A stretch of 46,502 nucleotides of DNA. It comes from a bacterium (GTDB lineage: Bacteria > JAJRZV01). Of this stretch, positions 1,030-12,652 are shown one piece after another (within the stretch, counting starts at the first letter, position 1; each line of letters opens with the position of its first letter). Position numbers and translations under genes: made by a program. Under the pieces are notes generated by a model, which was not told the DNA's origin, ran no database searches, and worked only from the letters and a program-made list of their open reading frames with translations. The stretch lies in assembly GCA_024275095.1 (NCBI GenBank), contig JAJRZV010000102.1, positions 1-46,502 of the forward strand, given 5' to 3'.

Positions 1030-4000
1030 TCACTCAGTAACAAAGGTCGCGCTGAACGGGAATGACATTGGAGTCCCTCCGAGGTCAGTGACATCCGTTG
1101 ACACATAAATGGTGTACTCTGTGGAGTTTTTCAGGGAGTCAACGGGATCAAAGTAAACCTTTGAGCCCTGAACCGAGATGCAGCCGTAAACCTGATCTCC
1201 TGTGTCACTTTCGAACACCTGAACTGAACCTGTAACCGGGCTGGGACCGTCAACACTTCCTGTAACCGTTGATGGATCAACGGGCTCACTGAAGTATATG
1301 ACAATCTGCGGGCTCACGGACACGCCTGTTTCTCCATCTGCCGGAACACTCGCAGTAACCGAAGGCGGTGTGCTCTCGGTGGTAAAGGTGAAGGTGCTCC
1401 ACGTATCTAAGGAATTTCCAGCATAATCGGTGATAGTGGAGGAAAGGACAGCAGTGTAAGTTTCTCCGCCTTTAAAAGGTGCTGGCGGATAGTATATGAC
1501 AACAGTCCCCGATGTCACATAACTTCCACCTGTGAGCCTTGTGCTGTCACTGCGGAGGAGGTAGAACGATGTCTCGTTAACGCTTGCCGGGTCTATCCCG
1601 TCTCCGGGCGTCGCATCGCTGAAGTAAGCTTTTACAGGAACGGTTACAGAAACGTCAGCAGAACCATCAGCAGGATCACTTCCCGCAAAGACGGGAGCTG
1701 TTGTCTCAATGGTGAACGAGAACTGCGCTCCGCCGAAAGCGGTGGAGGCAAGGTCAGCAATTTTGTCGGTAAGGGTCATGCGGTAGGTCAGACCGCTTTT
1801 AAGATATTCCTTTGGTCTGAATATCACGGTGGTTCGGTAGTTTACGTGGTCAAACTCAAAGGAAATTTCTCCTGCAATGTATGTGGCTCCTCCACCGTAG
1901 TCAAGGAGTATTGTATCGTAGGAAGGATCAGGGGGATCAGATGCGCGGATGCTTTCGGGAATGATGTGCTCGTCAAAGGTTACTTTGATCTCCACATTAC
2001 CCGGGATACCACTTTCACCATCAGCGGGGCTCGTTGAAAAAATGCTGGGAGCCGCCTGATCCGTCTGTGATGCCGTCCGGAAGCCGAAGCTCTGCAGGGA
2101 GGGATAGGGATTTCCCGTGAAATCAAGAAGTCCCTGGGTGAGCACAATGAGAAAGTCAGTCTGTGTGTCCAACTCGGGAACCGGTGAGATTGAAATCAGC
2201 CTCCTGTTCCTTGAAATTGAGATAAGCCCGCCCACCTTTTCTCCTGTGCTCTGATTGTAGAGATAAAATGTGGTGTCATTGACCTGAAGGGGATCAAGAG
2301 GGCGTGAAAGCACCACTGCCACAGCCCAGTCAGTTGGTGCATTGAGAATCTGATAAGGGACAGCATCTGCAGTATTTGCCGGACTTGTTCTGAAGGAAAT
2401 GATGTAGTCGTCTTCAAGAAAGTTTCCCTGAGTGTCCCTGACCCCATTCATTCCGCCACGGAGGGTGAGCGTGTAAGATGCCTCAAAGGCGAACTCAACT
2501 CCCGGATAAAGGGTCAGTATTCTTTCGGAATAAACAGCCGTTGCTGGAATGGCACTGGTTTCATCGCTCACATAACCCTGATTGATGAAGACATTGTCAG
2601 GGACTCCGTTGCCGTTAGAGTCAACCAGGAGGCTAAGTGCATCCATATCCCTGGAGAATATCACGGTCACATGAGAATTTACGGGAACGTCCTGAGCATT
2701 TTTGAGGGGTGATACCTTTGTGTGGGTGTTTTCTGCGTATATTTCCTGGATGAGAGGAGGGTCTCCGGTGGTGAAGGAAAAGTTTGTATCAGGAATGGAT
2801 GCGGCTGCGTCCTCTGTGGTGATCTGAGAGGTGAGGTGAACTGTATAGGTGGTGTTGTAAAGAAGGGGATGGAGCTGGTTGAGACAGTTGTATCTTCCGG
2901 GGTCGGGAGTGAACACTGCTTCGTTTACCCCAGCCAAGCCGTCACCGCTGATGTCGCTGCACCCTGCGGTATTGTTGAAAGTGATGGTTCCGGGAAGTAC
3001 AACCGTTCTGGAGAATGAGTCCTGAAATGTCACATAAAACGAAGAAGACGTGATGGTGCTGGGGTCCATGCACTCGGCAAATATCACGGTGATTGAAGTG
3101 CTCACGCTCACCCCGGTCTGCCCTGACTGGGGATCTGTACTGAGGATAAGGTTTGAGACACGGGTGCGAAAGGTGGAGGTGAAATCAGCAGGAAGAATCT
3201 GACCCTGGAGTCCGGTAATGCCGGCAGAACCGCCCCTCACAAAAATTTTGTAGAGAGTATCAAATGAAAGCGGAGCCGGGAATGTTAAGATAGCGGTATA
3301 CGTCGTATGGTCATATGAGGCAAAAGCGGTCAGGGGAGCATCCCAGCTGGTACAGTCCTGATTGAGGCACGGTACCACGTAAAAATTGTCCGGGACTGCG
3401 TCACCATCGGCATCCCGTGTAACAGAATTTTCGTACACTCCTGCGTTGAACGTTACCTTCACCTGGGTCCACAGGGAGACACCAACTGCACCGCTTTCAG
3501 GTCTCACCTCCACCACTGAAAGCGGAGGTACTGGCATGGTGTGGAAAACAAATGAAAAGGGCTCTGCAAGATACCCTCCTTCAGGGGTGGCTATTTTGCT
3601 GCGGATAGAGGAACTGAGAGAAACAAGGTAATAGGAATTATACTCCAGGGAGCTTTGAGGAACGAGTGAAGCTTTTGTTTCGGGCACGTCTGGAGGCAGA
3701 AGAAGCGTGCATGTGAGAGGATCTGGAGAAAGAAAGGACGTACATGAGGCATCTGCACACTTTCTGAGGATAAAAGAAGCTCCCGCATCATTTGTGGTGA
3801 AGGATCCGGAATCAATAGCCTGATCAAATATCACCTCAATGCTAGTGGTAACATCAACGTTTTCTCCGTTCGGGGAGGGCTTCACTGCTACAATGCGAAG
3901 AGGAGGAGGGTCAGATGTTTTGAAGTTGAGCACATATCTTTCAGAGAGAAACCCCCCCTCTGCAGTTGCAATGGTGCTTTCCACTCCCTGCTCCAGAATA

Positions 4001-5001
4001 ATCGTATACGTAGTGGATGCATCAAAGTCTGAGGAAGGATTGATAAAAACCCTTGTGGAATCAGCACTCAGGGTAATGACATAAGGAAAAGGAGGATCAA
4101 GGATTAACGTGGTTCCTTCAATTAAGGTGGCAGGGTCCACAGGCAGAGAAAATGCAATTTCAATCGGGGACAGCTTCACTTTACCTGTTACAAGATCAAC
4201 CTCTCCCACATTATCAGCAAAGGGCGAAGGGCTTGAATAAATTATCTGGAGGGGTGGAGGATTTACAGTTTTAAAGGAAAAAGAAACGTCCTCAGTAAGG
4301 CTTCCCCCGCTTTCAGTTGCAATGGCACTTTTTATTGTTCGGGAAAGCCACACCGTGTACCAGGTGGATGCATTGAGTCCTCCGGAAGGAGAGAATGTAA
4401 GTTCAGTATAATTCTCCGTAAAGGCTATGGTACCGGAAACGTCTGCTGATGGATTTGAAGAAGGATAAACCCTGAAAGTCTCACCTGCGCGAACTGATTG
4501 AGGGTCAACAGGCTCAGAAAAGAGAACTTTCACGTTCAAGTTAACCTTTCCATCAGATCTCAGCGAGCCAGCTTCTGTGCTCTCAGGAGAAGGAGAAACT
4601 GAGATAATGAAAAGAGAAGGAGGATCAACTGTCCGGAAAGTAGCCCTCACCTCTGCGGGAAGCCTTTTTCCGCTTCTGCTTTTCACATTTCTTGTAATTA
4701 CAAATGTGTAGGAACGAGAATAGCTGAGAAGCACGTCCGGCTGATAAAGCGCTGTGAAGGTTTCTGGATTATATGAAATGGAACCGGGAACAGGCTCGCC
4801 CGTCTGAGAGTCCAAGAGAAAAATGTTTTCAGGTGTGAGTGTTCCTTCATCCACAGCCTCAGAAAAAATAGCCTCTATCTGCACATCCCTTGCCACATTT
4901 CCACTTCCACCAGAAGGACTGATGCTTACCACCGTAAAGTGATATCTCACTTCAGTACATCCAAATAAAATCAAAAGGAGAAAACTTACGACTTTTCGCA
5001 T
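1030..5001 (-). CDS. Giant surface lipoprotein with about 11 bacterial Ig-like (Big_5/SbsA) repeats
   Basis: This 1323-residue protein starts with a lipoprotein signal (MRKVVSFLLLILFGC, acylated Cys at residue 15), so it is probably anchored in the outer membrane or periplasm. The rest is a string of about eleven domains of 90-130 residues. Each opens with a P-S/A-x-G-x-x-x-V-x-V segment, continues with a V-x-F-S-x-P/A-V/M-D-P-x-S/T-V motif, and closes with YT-ls-ss-I-x-d and fsF-x-T. This is the pattern of the Big_5 (SbsA Ig-like) family. The last three to four copies are the most regular (PADGE-TGV-S), while copies 7 and 8 are divergent. No catalytic or metal-binding domain was seen. A strong ribosome site (GAAGGAGGGA) precedes the ATG. 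The gene stands alone on its strand. A role in adhesion or surface structure is inferred from architecture only. Confidence 0.88.
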   Translation of the reverse strand: MRKVVSFLLLILFGCTEVRYHFTVVSISPSGGSGNVARDVQIEAIFSEAVDEGTLTPENIFLLDSQTGEPVPGSISYNPETFTALYQPDVLLSYSRSYTFVITRNVKSRSGKRLPAEVRATFRTVDPPSLFIISVSPSPESTEAGSLRSDGKVNLNVKVLFSEPVDPQSVRAGETFRVYPSSNPSADVSGTIAFTENYTELTFSPSGGLNASTWYTVWLSRTIKSAIATESGGSLTEDVSFSFKTVNPPPLQIIYSSPSPFADNVGEVDLVTGKVKLSPIEIAFSLPVDPATLIEGTTLILDPPFPYVITLSADSTRVFINPSSDFDASTTYTIILEQGVESTIATAEGGFLSERYVLNFKTSDPPPLRIVAVKPSPNGENVDVTTSIEVIFDQAIDSGSFTTNDAGASFILRKCADASCTSFLSPDPLTCTLLLPPDVPETKASLVPQSSLEYNSYYLVSLSSSIRSKIATPEGGYLAEPFSFVFHTMPVPPLSVVEVRPESGAVGVSLWTQVKVTFNAGVYENSVTRDADGDAVPDNFYVVPCLNQDCTSWDAPLTAFASYDHTTYTAILTFPAPLSFDTLYKIFVRGGSAGITGLQGQILPADFTSTFRTRVSNLILSTDPQSGQTGVSVSTSITVIFAECMDPSTITSSSFYVTFQDSFSRTVVLPGTITFNNTAGCSDISGDGLAGVNEAVFTPDPGRYNCLNQLHPLLYNTTYTVHLTSQITTEDAAASIPDTNFSFTTGDPPLIQEIYAENTHTKVSPLKNAQDVPVNSHVTVIFSRDMDALSLLVDSNGNGVPDNVFINQGYVSDETSAIPATAVYSERILTLYPGVEFAFEASYTLTLRGGMNGVRDTQGNFLEDDYIISFRTSPANTADAVPYQILNAPTDWAVAVVLSRPLDPLQVNDTTFYLYNQSTGEKVGGLISISRNRRLISISPVPELDTQTDFLIVLTQGLLDFTGNPYPSLQSFGFRTASQTDQAAPSIFSTSPADGESGIPGNVEIKVTFDEHIIPESIRASDPPDPSYDTILLDYGGGATYIAGEISFEFDHVNYRTTVIFRPKEYLKSGLTYRMTLTDKIADLASTAFGGAQFSFTIETTAPVFAGSDPADGSADVSVTVPVKAYFSDATPGDGIDPASVNETSFYLLRSDSTRLTGGSYVTSGTVVIYYPPAPFKGGETYTAVLSSTITDYAGNSLDTWSTFTFTTESTPPSVTASVPADGETGVSVSPQIVIYFSEPVDPSTVTGSVDGPSPVTGSVQVFESDTGDQVYGCISVQGSKVYFDPVDSLKNSTEYTIYVSTDVTDLGGTPMSFPFSATFVTE

Positions 5002-9103: not shown

Positions 9104-9838
9104 TTACGGCAGATATAAAAGCGGGTTTACCGGAATTTTACCCCTGCGAATTTCAAAATGCAGATGAGGACCGGTAATCCGGCCGGTCTGGCCCACGCGG
9201 CCGATAATATCACCCTGTTTTACAAAGTCACCTTCCTTCACCAAGTTTACCTGGTTGTGTGCATAAACAGTGAAAAAATTCCCGGTGTGTTTAATCACAA
9301 TTAAATTACCATATCCTTTGAGTTCATCTCCTGAATACACCACGCGTCCATCAGCAGCGGCCCTGATGGGAGTGCCTTCTGGTGCTGAAATATCTATTCC
9401 ATCGTGGGGACGGCCATTACGCCTGCCAAATCCACTGGTAATGGTTCCCACGACGGGCCAGACAAATCTGCCCTTGCCTTTTGAAGGATGCTTTTGAATC
9501 TTTGAATTAGGAGACGAGGATGATGAGCGTGGCTGCGCCCTGGATAAGGAATACGTTTGTGAATGCTTGCTTTTCTCCGGGCTCGAAGCTGTTTCAGAGG
9601 TGTATGGCTTCACATCAAGCACGTGATCGGCACCCGGAATAAAAAGCACCTGGCCTTCTTTGATTTCTTCAGGATCATCAAGCCGGTTGGCAACAATAAT
9701 ATCTTCCATTTTTACCCCGTACGTTTTTGCAATACGGTAAAGGGTCTGCCCTTTTTTAACGGTATGGTATACCCCGTATGGTGTTCCACATGAATATAAG
9801 AATATAACCGCTGCTGCAACGAAAACTGCTTTCTTCAT
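9104..9838 (-). CDS. nlpD: LysM and M23 (LytM) domain lipoprotein, NlpD-like
   Basis: The protein has a lipoprotein signal (VIFLYSC), a single LysM domain for peptidoglycan binding (YHTVKKGQTLYRIAKTYGVKMEDIIVANRL), a Ser/Pro-rich linker and a C-terminal M23 domain. The M23 zinc motifs are intact: H-x-x-x-D in PHDGIDI and HLHFEIR. It could therefore be an active endopeptidase, unlike enterobacterial NlpD, which is an amidase activator with a degenerate site. I take the ATG at 9838, with GAGGGAG about ten bases upstream. A TTG three codons earlier has poor spacing. The neighbours surE-pcm-yqaA on the same strand match the conserved proteobacterial surE-pcm-nlpD order, which supports the name. 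No rpoS follows. The likely role is cell-wall remodelling during division. Confidence 0.85.
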   Translation of the reverse strand: MKKAVFVAAAVIFLYSCGTPYGVYHTVKKGQTLYRIAKTYGVKMEDIIVANRLDDPEEIKEGQVLFIPGADHVLDVKPYTSETASSPEKSKHSQTYSLSRAQPRSSSSSPNSKIQKHPSKGKGRFVWPVVGTITSGFGRRNGRPHDGIDISAPEGTPIRAAADGRVVYSGDELKGYGNLIVIKHTGNFFTVYAHNQVNLVKEGDFVKQGDIIGRVGQTGRITGPHLHFEIRRGKIPVNPLLYLP

Positions 9839-9957
9839 GTAAGCCAACTCCCTCGTTGGGAAATTTTAGCAGCTCGGGACATAACAGGTCACATTAAACT
9901 GTCTGTTCACAACGCAAACCTCTACTTTTTATGTTCACGTGATATCATGAAAACGTC

Positions 9958-10599
9958 ATGATGTCCAAAAAGCAACTCGAGATGATACTTGCCCGGCTGG
10001 CTGTGTTTGAACGACCACGCCTTAAACTCGAACAATACAGTACAGACGCCGGTAACGCAGCGTTTCTTGTTCATCACGCGGCTGTGTGCGGCGATGTAAA
10101 GGATAAGATAATAGTTGATCTCGGCGCGGGCACAGGCATTCTCGCTCTGGGAACACTATTCTACTCTCCGGCGGAGGTTCATCTGGTTGACACAGACCGG
10201 GAAGCCCTGGACATTGCCCGGGAAAATCTGAAACAGCTTCAACAAGAATTCAGCCTTCCACATCAAAATGTGTTTTTTCACTGCGTGGACGTCCAGAAGT
10301 TCTACCGCAAGGGACATACGGTAATCATGAATCCACCTTTTGGAAAATTTCGAAAAGGAATAGACCGCCTGTTTCTTTCAAAAGCATTCTCAATTTCCGA
10401 TGTAATCCATACCTTTACAAACACAGGAAGCCAGCCCTTTGTAGAGGCATTTGCTCGAGAACACGGATTCTGCATCACTCATCATCAAGATCGTGAAATG
10501 ATGTTACCTCACTCGTTTAAGCACCACAGTCGCAGACTCTTCCGGCAAAAAGTTGACTATTACCGGCTTGAAAAAGTCATGAAAAAAGCATCATCTTAA
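9958..10599 (+). CDS. METTL5-like (COG2263) RNA N6-adenine methyltransferase
   Basis: This 213-residue class I SAM methyltransferase has motif I VDLGAGTGILALGT, an acidic residue closing motif II (LVDTDREAL) and the catalytic NPPFG motif in VIMNPPFGKFRKGIDRLFL. The N-terminal FERPRLKLEQYSTDAGNAA and the C-terminal LPHSFKHHSRR correspond to the KPKLxLEQYPT and P-x-x-(Y/F)KFHKKK segments of eukaryotic and archaeal METTL5. Members of that family methylate an adenine in small-subunit rRNA at or near the decoding site, and they are mainly archaeal and eukaryotic. The gene is the only plus-strand gene inside the minus-strand nlpD-surE block, and its last nine bases overlap the 3' end of yqaA. This is consistent with insertion by transfer. 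Its substrate in this bacterium is unknown. Confidence 0.8.
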   Translation: MMSKKQLEMILARLAVFERPRLKLEQYSTDAGNAAFLVHHAAVCGDVKDKIIVDLGAGTGILALGTLFYSPAEVHLVDTDREALDIARENLKQLQQEFSLPHQNVFFHCVDVQKFYRKGHTVIMNPPFGKFRKGIDRLFLSKAFSISDVIHTFTNTGSQPFVEAFAREHGFCITHHQDREMMLPHSFKHHSRRLFRQKVDYYRLEKVMKKASS

Positions 10600-11184
10600 C
10601 CGCCACAGCACAAAAACCACCACTATCACCATTGAAGCACCTATTACTACCTTTTCAAAGTTCTTTTCCACGAATTCACCTGCCTTTTCACCCCATATAG
10701 AAAAGGGCGTGGCCAGCAGAAAGTATCGTGAACCACGGCCCGTAAGGGATGCAGCAAGGAAAAGAAACACGTCCATTTTCACTGCTCCTGATGCAATGGT
10801 AAAAACCTTATATGGCAAAGGAGTAAAGGCCGCCAGAAACACAATATAAACACCGTGAGTGGAATACAGAGACTGAAAACGGGAAAACTCTTCGTGCAGG
10901 TGAAAAAAATCTATCACCCGGATTCCCACCGTGCCCATGAAATAATGCCCGATGATATACCCTAAGAAAGCACCTGACACCGATGCCATCGTGGTAATTC
11001 CAGCAAAAAAGAAAGCGCGCCTTGGGCGTGCCAGACACATGGGCAGAAGAAGCACCTCGGGAGGAATCGGGAAAAACGAAGCTTCGGCAAAGGCCACTGC
11101 CGCCAGCGTCACCGGGCTTGCCCGGCGCCCCAGGAAATCAACTGTCCAGTAATAAACTTTTCTCAGAAACAAAAAAGGCTTCAA
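10591..11184 (-). CDS. yqaA: YqaA-family (DedA/VTT-like) membrane protein
   Basis: This 197-residue integral membrane protein of the YqaA/SNARE-associated (DedA-like, VTT fold) group has about five hydrophobic segments. It carries the family features F-P-I-P-P-E-x-L/V-L-x-P (FFPIPPEVLLLP) and the re-entrant G-x-x-x-G-Y-x-x-G (GAFLGYIIG). Relatives in the wider DedA family act as lipid scramblases or flippases; the role of the YqaA branch is not established. The start is a TTG four bases after the pcm stop, so translational coupling with pcm is likely. Placement between pcm and nlpD is seen in other proteobacteria. Confidence 0.8.
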   Translation of the reverse strand: MKPFLFLRKVYYWTVDFLGRRASPVTLAAVAFAEASFFPIPPEVLLLPMCLARPRRAFFFAGITTMASVSGAFLGYIIGHYFMGTVGIRVIDFFHLHEEFSRFQSLYSTHGVYIVFLAAFTPLPYKVFTIASGAVKMDVFLFLAASLTGRGSRYFLLATPFSIWGEKAGEFVEKNFEKVVIGASMVIVVVFVLWRLR

Positions 11185-11187
11185 TTT

Positions 11188-11856
11188 TTACTGGCTCCAC
11201 CCATGCTTTCCTATAAGTTTCACAAACACGCACCCCCCAAGGTTCTGTATAAACACCTGGCCTTCCCGTTTCTCAACAAGCAGAAGGTCCTGTCCCATAC
11301 GATCACCTACCGGAATAACCAGCCTGCCCCCATCGGCAAGCTGGTTAACGAGCGGTTGAGGGATTTCAGGAGCACCCGCTGTCACAATAATTCCGTCAAA
11401 TGGAGCCGCCTCTGGCCAGCCCAGCGTGCCGTCTCCTACTCTTATGTAAAACCTGGAATAACCCAGAGCCTCCAGCTGTTTCTTCGCCTTTTCCGCAAGC
11501 TCCTGGACACGTTCAATGGAATACACCTCAGCACCTGCCTCCAGCAACACGGCGGTCTGATACCCCGACCCCGTACCAATTTCCAGCACCTTCATTCCAG
11601 TGCGTGGCGCCAGAGCTTCTGTCATGAACGCAACCATGTATGGCTGGGATATGGTCTGTCCGTGACCTATTGGGAGCGGGTGGTCATCGTAAGCCTGTGA
11701 ACGCACGGACTCCGGCACAAACAAGTGGCGGGGAACATTTCTCATTGCTTTGAGCACAACAGGATTTGTTACACCACGATTTCTTATCTGAGTCTCCACC
11801 ATTTGATGGCGCAATCGTGCGTAATACTTCTCTTTATCAGAATTTTTCGAGCTCAT
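11188..11856 (-). CDS. pcm: Protein-L-isoaspartate O-methyltransferase
   Basis: This SAM-dependent enzyme of about 222 residues repairs L-isoaspartyl sites in aged proteins. The family hallmarks are present: GHGQTISQPYMVAFMTEAL, motif I VLEIGTGSGYQTAVLLEAG, IERVQELAEKA and GDGTLGWPEAAPFDGIIVTAGAPEIP. The ATG at 11856 is preferred because GAGGA lies about nine bases upstream; the TTG five codons earlier has no such site. The coding sequence overlaps the end of surE by 20 bases, the usual surE-pcm coupling. The protein is cytoplasmic and linked to stress and stationary-phase survival. Confidence 0.93.
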   Translation of the reverse strand: MSSKNSDKEKYYARLRHQMVETQIRNRGVTNPVVLKAMRNVPRHLFVPESVRSQAYDDHPLPIGHGQTISQPYMVAFMTEALAPRTGMKVLEIGTGSGYQTAVLLEAGAEVYSIERVQELAEKAKKQLEALGYSRFYIRVGDGTLGWPEAAPFDGIIVTAGAPEIPQPLVNQLADGGRLVIPVGDRMGQDLLLVEKREGQVFIQNLGGCVFVKLIGKHGWSQ

Positions 11857-12601
11857 TTTTCCAGTCCTCAAGTATCCGGAGTGATTCGCGGTGGGTAAGA
11901 TCCAGGTGGAGTGGAGTTACTGAAATATATCTCCTCAAAACCATTACGATATCTGAGTTTTCTATGTACTCAAACCCGAGTTCATCTCCCCCTATCCAGT
12001 AATATTTTCTGCCACGTGGGTCAACTTTTTCCACAATGGCTTCACCATACTTACGCCGCCCCTGGACTGTAAACGCTACACCTTTTATTTCTGAGACGCT
12101 ACTTACGGGAGGGACATTCACATTGAGAAATACTCCCTCAGATGGCATACCATGTCTGAAGACAATTTCAGCAAGGCGCCTGGCGAACTGCCCGGCAGGG
12201 GTATAATTCAGGTTTTCCCTTCCCGCAAGGGATATGGAAAAAGCAGGAATGCCAAGAAGTGTTGCTTCCATTGCCGCGGAGACAGTACCACTGTACGTCA
12301 CATCATCTCCAAGGTTGCCTCCCCTGTTGATACCAGAAGCAACAAGATCGGGACGAAATTTCAGGAGTCCATTCACCGCGATATTCACACAATCAGCAGG
12401 CGTTCCATCCACGGCAAATGTTCTTTCATCCACTTCTGTCACGCGTAAAGGCCGATGTAAAGTTATTGCGTGAGACGAGGCGGACTGCTCCCTGTCAGGA
12501 GCCACGATCCAGACTTCGCCCAGCTCTTCGAGCGATTCAGCGAGGCAGCGTAATCCTTCTGCATAAATACCATCGTCATTGGTTACCAGTATCCGCCTCA
12601 T
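11837..12601 (-). CDS. surE: 5'/3'-nucleotidase SurE
   Basis: This metal-dependent nucleoside monophosphatase removes phosphate from 5'- and 3'-nucleotides. The N-terminal MRRILVTNDDGIYAEGL holds the ND-D metal ligands. Further motifs are PDREQSASSHAITLHRPLR, DGTPADCVN and SGINRGGNLGDDVTYSGTVSAAMEA. I place the start at the ATG at 12601 (MRRILV), with AGGAG eleven bases upstream. A longer frame exists to 12643, but SurE proteins begin at the ILVTNDDG segment. The tRNA-Pro gene lies 51 bases upstream on the same strand, so surE may be read from the tRNA promoter. Confidence 0.94.
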   Translation of the reverse strand: MRRILVTNDDGIYAEGLRCLAESLEELGEVWIVAPDREQSASSHAITLHRPLRVTEVDERTFAVDGTPADCVNIAVNGLLKFRPDLVASGINRGGNLGDDVTYSGTVSAAMEATLLGIPAFSISLAGRENLNYTPAGQFARRLAEIVFRHGMPSEGVFLNVNVPPVSSVSEIKGVAFTVQGRRKYGEAIVEKVDPRGRKYYWIGGDELGFEYIENSDIVMVLRRYISVTPLHLDLTHRESLRILEDWKNELEKF

Positions 12602-12652
12602 CGGATGAACAGCTCCTGAAGTTTTCCGTGAAAATTCATGCATATAAAAAAA

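Follow-up and report, generated by a model that had tools for sequence, protein, structure and literature searches.

The window, by which we mean the whole 46,502-nucleotide stretch of DNA analysed here, carries an open reading frame (ORF) on its plus strand at 9958-10599 that starts with ATG, encodes 213 aa and is intact, with 0 internal stops. The gene, the motifs of its product and its nearest neighbours are listed below.

9958..10599, plus strand: METTL5/COG2263-type N6-adenine RNA methyltransferase gene (213 aa, stop included in the coordinates)
10027..10044, plus strand: LEQYST, N-terminal family motif, residues 24-29 (40-row alignment)
10114..10137, plus strand: VDLGAGTG, SAM-binding, residues 53-60 (alignment and AlphaFold model)
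10330..10344, plus strand: NPPFG, catalytic motif, residues 125-129 (40-row alignment)
10504..10536, plus strand: LPHSFKHHSRR, C-terminal segment, residues 183-193 (METTL5 has LPASYKFHKKK at the aligned place)
9104..9847, minus strand: LysM and peptidase M23 protein, divergent upstream neighbour (Pfam)
10591..11184, minus strand: VTT-domain (YqaA-like) protein, convergent neighbour with a 9-base 3' overlap (Pfam)
11188..11871, minus strand: Pcm-type isoaspartate methyltransferase (Pfam)
11837..12643, minus strand: SurE (Pfam)

The original prediction described the gene as overlapping yqaA tail to tail and as lying in opposite orientation to its surroundings. Both descriptions are accurate: the last 9 bases of the ORF overlap the 3' end of 10591-11184, and the other long ORFs taken as genes, from 9104 to about 24.2 kb, are all on the minus strand. 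MerR, IHF, PheT, PheS, RplT, InfC and ThrS, read by eye, also belong to this minus-strand block. Elsewhere in the window, 1030-5001 on the minus strand encodes a 1,323-aa protein in which 11 stretches match Big_5 (bacterial Ig-like), and at the contig edge (15-800, plus strand) lies a Mutator-family transposase that spans no more than positions 92-306 of its Pfam profile (379 positions).

The motifs quoted in the original prediction, FERPRLKLEQYST, VDLGAGTGILALGT, MNPPFG and LPHSFKHHSRR, are all found in this ORF, and VDLGAGTG is the SAM-binding motif I. In the family alignment, NPPFG is invariant in 40/40 rows, as are E25 and Q26 of LEQYST, with Y27 nearly so; H190 of the C-terminal segment is nearly invariant. 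Altogether 13 columns are invariant, including E25, Q26 and NPPFG, and the window protein breaks 0 of them, a count that asks only whether it breaks invariant columns, as the protein is itself one of the 40 rows. A catalytic role of NPPF is described in the excerpted text of a review (PMC9636144), which also places the substrate binding site of METTL5 at D185-D199; LPHSFKHHSRR lies within or adjoining the equivalent segment.

When the protein was compared by phmmer with all PDB sequences, PH1948 of Pyrococcus horikoshii came first with an E-value of 7e-42 over residues 2-209, and hence the ORF is not a product of chance. Human METTL5 (E 2e-20) and Ta1320 (E 1.9e-18) followed, after which the E-value dropped to 1.4e-3. 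In Pfam, the core is matched by the generic MTS domain at 44.8 bits, above the curated cut-off. The family reading stands, with one correction: it is the full-length match that sets METTL5 apart from bacterial enzymes, and 'NPPF' alone does not.

A structure was predicted with AlphaFold2 from the 40-row alignment, which contains the window protein and the locus proteins (mean pLDDT 94.2, pTM 0.90). In a Foldseek search of the PDB with this model, ranks 1-10 are all chains of PH1948, METTL5 or Ta1320. By VIA-align 2, the model superimposes on PH1948 with Z 32.1 (rmsd 1.6 over 196) and on METTL5 with Z 28.7 (rmsd 1.7 over 195); Ta1320 gives Z 24.5, and the next protein, a branched-chain polyamine synthase, Z 21.1. 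The window protein belongs to the class I SAM-dependent methylases. Among known systems it is most like PH1948 (PDB 1wy7, archaeal COG2263), which it matches over its full length at about 40% identity with the same motifs, although the host of PH1948 is an archaeon. With human METTL5 (PDB 6h2u, in complex with TRMT112; the 18S m6A1832 methylase) it shares the fold, NPPF, LEQY.T and the C-terminal segment, but the identity is about 30%, and the human enzyme is eukaryotic and stabilised by TRMT112. TrmM of Mycoplasma capricolum (PDB 7wm6), whose target is m6A37 of tRNA, likewise belongs to the small RNA methylases of this fold class (Z 17.5); however, its sequence match reaches an E-value of only 1.4e-3, and the structural match is far weaker than those to PH1948 and METTL5.

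An ordinary bacterial methylase of the RsmD, PrmA or PrmC type that merely resembles METTL5 would share the Rossmann methylase core and, for RsmD and PrmC, a PPY/PPF-type motif. Indeed, Pfam PrmA (29.7 bits, cut-off 22) and Cons_hypoth95 (28.1 bits, cut-off 24) both match the core domain above their cut-offs. The full-length NCBIfam models, in contrast, are all missed, at about a fifth of their cut-offs or less: RsmD (TIGR00095) scores 24.8 of 117.5 bits, PrmA (TIGR00406) 29.6 of 183.15 and PrmC (TIGR03534) 40 of 199.1. Furthermore, the genome encodes a separate RsmD (150.1 bits against the cut-off of 117.5). In a tree of 31 proteins, one branch (88/76) parts 22 family rows, the window protein among them, from nine bacterial methylases, three of which were identified by NCBIfam as RsmD, PrmC and PrmA; the same branch is recovered in 90% of 200 bootstrap trees, which is moderate support. 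Given that the tree and the sequence and structure ranks all speak against an RsmD/PrmA/PrmC identity, we rejected it and give it practically no chance. The phylogenetic check proposed with the original prediction therefore places the gene with the archaeal family, with moderate support, and METTL5-group membership is borne out by sequence, structure, invariant residues and tree. The gene is a member of the METTL5/COG2263 family in a bacterium; the kind of enzyme is not new, but the domain in which it occurs is unexpected.

The family is very rare, almost absent, in Bacteria. With the window protein as query, matches at E <= 1e-8 occur in 4/386 bacterial genomes: its own (G000) and three (G069, G211 and G341) of one other family, f70. 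A family profile finds full-length matches (232-248 bits) only in the same four, which are themselves rows of the profile; 42 other genomes match it at E <= 1e-12, but only partially and at no more than 63 bits. Among the matches listed, other bacterial genomes share only the rank of domain with the window genome. In the phylum of f70, hereafter the second phylum, a METTL5-like gene is present in 5/5 genomes examined. An alignment scan of a named genome collection (84,980 species) confirmed at least 91 relatives. The best 80 of these comprise 79 that are archaeal by title and one titled 'bacterium', with no other bacterial relative among them; the f70 genomes are likewise absent from the matches listed. 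A scan of the same collection with the single protein gave 0 relatives. In viral contigs, the family alignment gave 287 pattern matches and 0 confirmed relatives, and a viral origin was rejected on this ground.

The one relative titled as bacterial (L083; DAIDCO010000011.1, 10001-10612, 'bacterium isolate clean3188') does not count as a third bacterial case and was rejected: the tree nests it within Thermoplasmata, where it joins L080 at 100/97, and its neighbours, judged by eye, resemble archaeal ligase and exosome proteins. A search of the open-licence PMC literature by titles and abstract openings found no paper on a bacterial METTL5. The excerpted text of PMC8868631, a study that surveyed 17 bacteria, reports none, and that of PMC8481954 lists METTL5 as one of four factors whose presence in its set of archaea passes a threshold of 90%.

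Nearly all relatives seen are from archaea or eukaryotes, so the presence of the gene here is most simply read as a transfer from Archaea. That transfer would lie far enough back for the gene to have come to match its new host in base composition. In an 88-row family tree, Archaeoglobaceae are the sister group of the second phylum (94/93), with the window gene placed elsewhere (76/91); when the six bacterial rows are forced together, the AU test gives p 0.379 and does not reject their union. The 31-protein tree puts the window gene with Desulfurococcales (83/85) and the second phylum with Archaeoglobaceae (85/91). A single shared acquisition by both bacterial lineages is thus neither shown nor excluded by these trees.

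On whether the gene crossed from Archaea once or twice, the host markers are divided: the RpoB tree joins the window genome to the second phylum (100/99), whereas the RpoC tree sets it apart and joins it to G043 (100/99). In AU tests, neither of the alternative placements is rejected (p 0.0628 and 0.0925). The two markers combined (26 genomes, LG+G4 without mixture) separate the lineages, and their union is again not rejected (p 0.302). Besides the window genome and the second phylum, these marker trees hold 24 hand-picked genomes, mostly best PheT matches to the window and not a full sampling, from which RpoB was obtained in 23 and RpoC in 20. The stems of the second phylum are very long (0.9-1.4), so the trees may be misled.

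In the second phylum (the phylum of G211; L152-L156 and L173-L177), the RpoB frames (1,562-1,580 aa) and RpoC frames (1,606-1,620 aa) are longer than in most other genomes compared, and their stems are very long. In the comparison of G000, G043, G069, G211, G341, G386 and G387, RpoB and RpoC place the window genome differently, each with strong support.

The neighbourhoods of the gene differ among its carriers: an electron transfer flavoprotein lies near L003 and ATP synthase A near L004, and at L005 the METTL5-like gene is preceded by the tail of a class I tRNA synthetase, where the window has the M23 and YqaA genes instead. A hypothetical protein near leuS in the window genome, considered as a possible counterpart of one beside the METTL5 gene of the second phylum, has a match at only 1/10 loci (L007; 28% over 95 aa, E 1e-7). 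Within the second phylum, the closest pair of genes (L003 and L006) gives dN 0.08 and dS 0.51, the other nine pairs being at or near saturation. Purifying selection on the gene is thereby shown in this second bacterial lineage, from one usable pair.

A 16S gene was found in 4/5 second-phylum genomes and was not found in the window genome assembly. The place of A1500 reads GTCGTAACAAGGTA in 4/4 of these rRNAs; as this is the usual bacterial sequence, it tells us that the target exists in the second phylum and no more. RsmE scores over its cut-off in 6/6 carriers, and RsmH is present in 6/6, five of them over the cut-off, with the G211 copy frame-broken; hence the neighbouring bacterial marks are to be expected in the carriers too. 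The G211 copy (G211:C10:39858-40744) is split into two pieces that overlap but are read in different frames, owing either to a frameshift or to an assembly error. A Trm112p domain protein is encoded in 6/6 carriers, but also in 1/2 non-carriers and in E. coli, and so its presence is no evidence for a complex. The window genome's own Trm112-like copy is a 63-aa ORF, and a Trm112-like partner for the window protein is possible. The excerpted text of PMC9636144 connects METTL5 with NPPF, TRMT112 and m6A1832, and has the worm METL-5 working without TRMT112.

Taken together, these results point to a bacterial METTL5/COG2263 member of probable archaeal origin that is probably, and as its most likely activity, an m6A methylase of A1500 in 16S rRNA. 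The activity, target and effect are inferred from the family, whose role is treated in PMC2584109, PMC8481954 and PMC9636144. The methylase would bind the h44/h45 region of the small-subunit particle or its precursor, accommodate A1500 (E. coli numbering, GUAACAAGG) in its NPPF pocket and add a single methyl group at N6, the reaction ascribed to its archaeal and eukaryotic relatives; the effect would be a fine tuning of the decoding centre.

This reading has to be weighed against others in which the family assignment is kept. An N6-adenine methylase of the METTL5 family could act on another target, such as another rRNA site, tRNA or mRNA. The window protein has a branch of 1.15 in the 88-row tree and a best identity of only 42%; its specificity may therefore have drifted, and the long branch would then reflect a changed substrate. 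Bacterial 30S assembly also differs from that of Archaea. Nevertheless, the C-terminal segment that corresponds to the substrate-binding part of METTL5 is kept in pattern, and the context of A1500 is the usual one in the four rRNAs read, none of them from the window genome, so that we regard another target as unlikely. A gene that is unexpressed, or whose product is inactive, would fit with the upstream region, where a simple scan of 1,051 bases counted 3 promoter-like sites, with 1.3 expected, and no clear promoter. However, the open frame and all invariant residues have stayed intact despite long divergence, and purifying selection on the gene is seen in the second lineage, as judged from one usable pair, which makes this a very unlikely account.

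The gene could also have come from archaeal contamination or from a chimeric contig in a metagenome assembly, given that the family is otherwise archaeal and that the source genome is in 136 contigs and is perhaps a MAG. Its context argues against this: it lies inside a 46.5-kb contig whose PheT matches PheT in 353/386 bacterial genomes, it shares 9 bases with the neighbouring gene, its GC content (about 46% in the region of the gene) is level with the flanks, and the estimated contamination of the genome is 0.94%. The contig is bacterial, and on these grounds contamination was rejected as exceedingly unlikely.

We thus return to a METTL5-family enzyme acting on A1500, and lean towards a broader proposition: that two bacterial phyla make m6A1500 in otherwise bacterial ribosomes with RsmE (m3U1498) and RsmH (m4C1402) genes, after one or two ancient transfers from Archaea, and that the mark has been kept by selection. 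The excerpted text of PMC2584109 describes this archaeal and eukaryotic mark as 'never in Bacteria'; with a bacterial METTL5 in 5/5 genomes of one phylum and in a second lineage, that statement becomes directly testable. If the proposition is true, a mark by which the domains have been distinguished has crossed the boundary between them. The ribosomes of a little-sampled bacterium may bear a decoding-site mark reported only from archaea and eukaryotes, and the carriers would provide natural bacterial ribosomes for studying the role of m6A1500.
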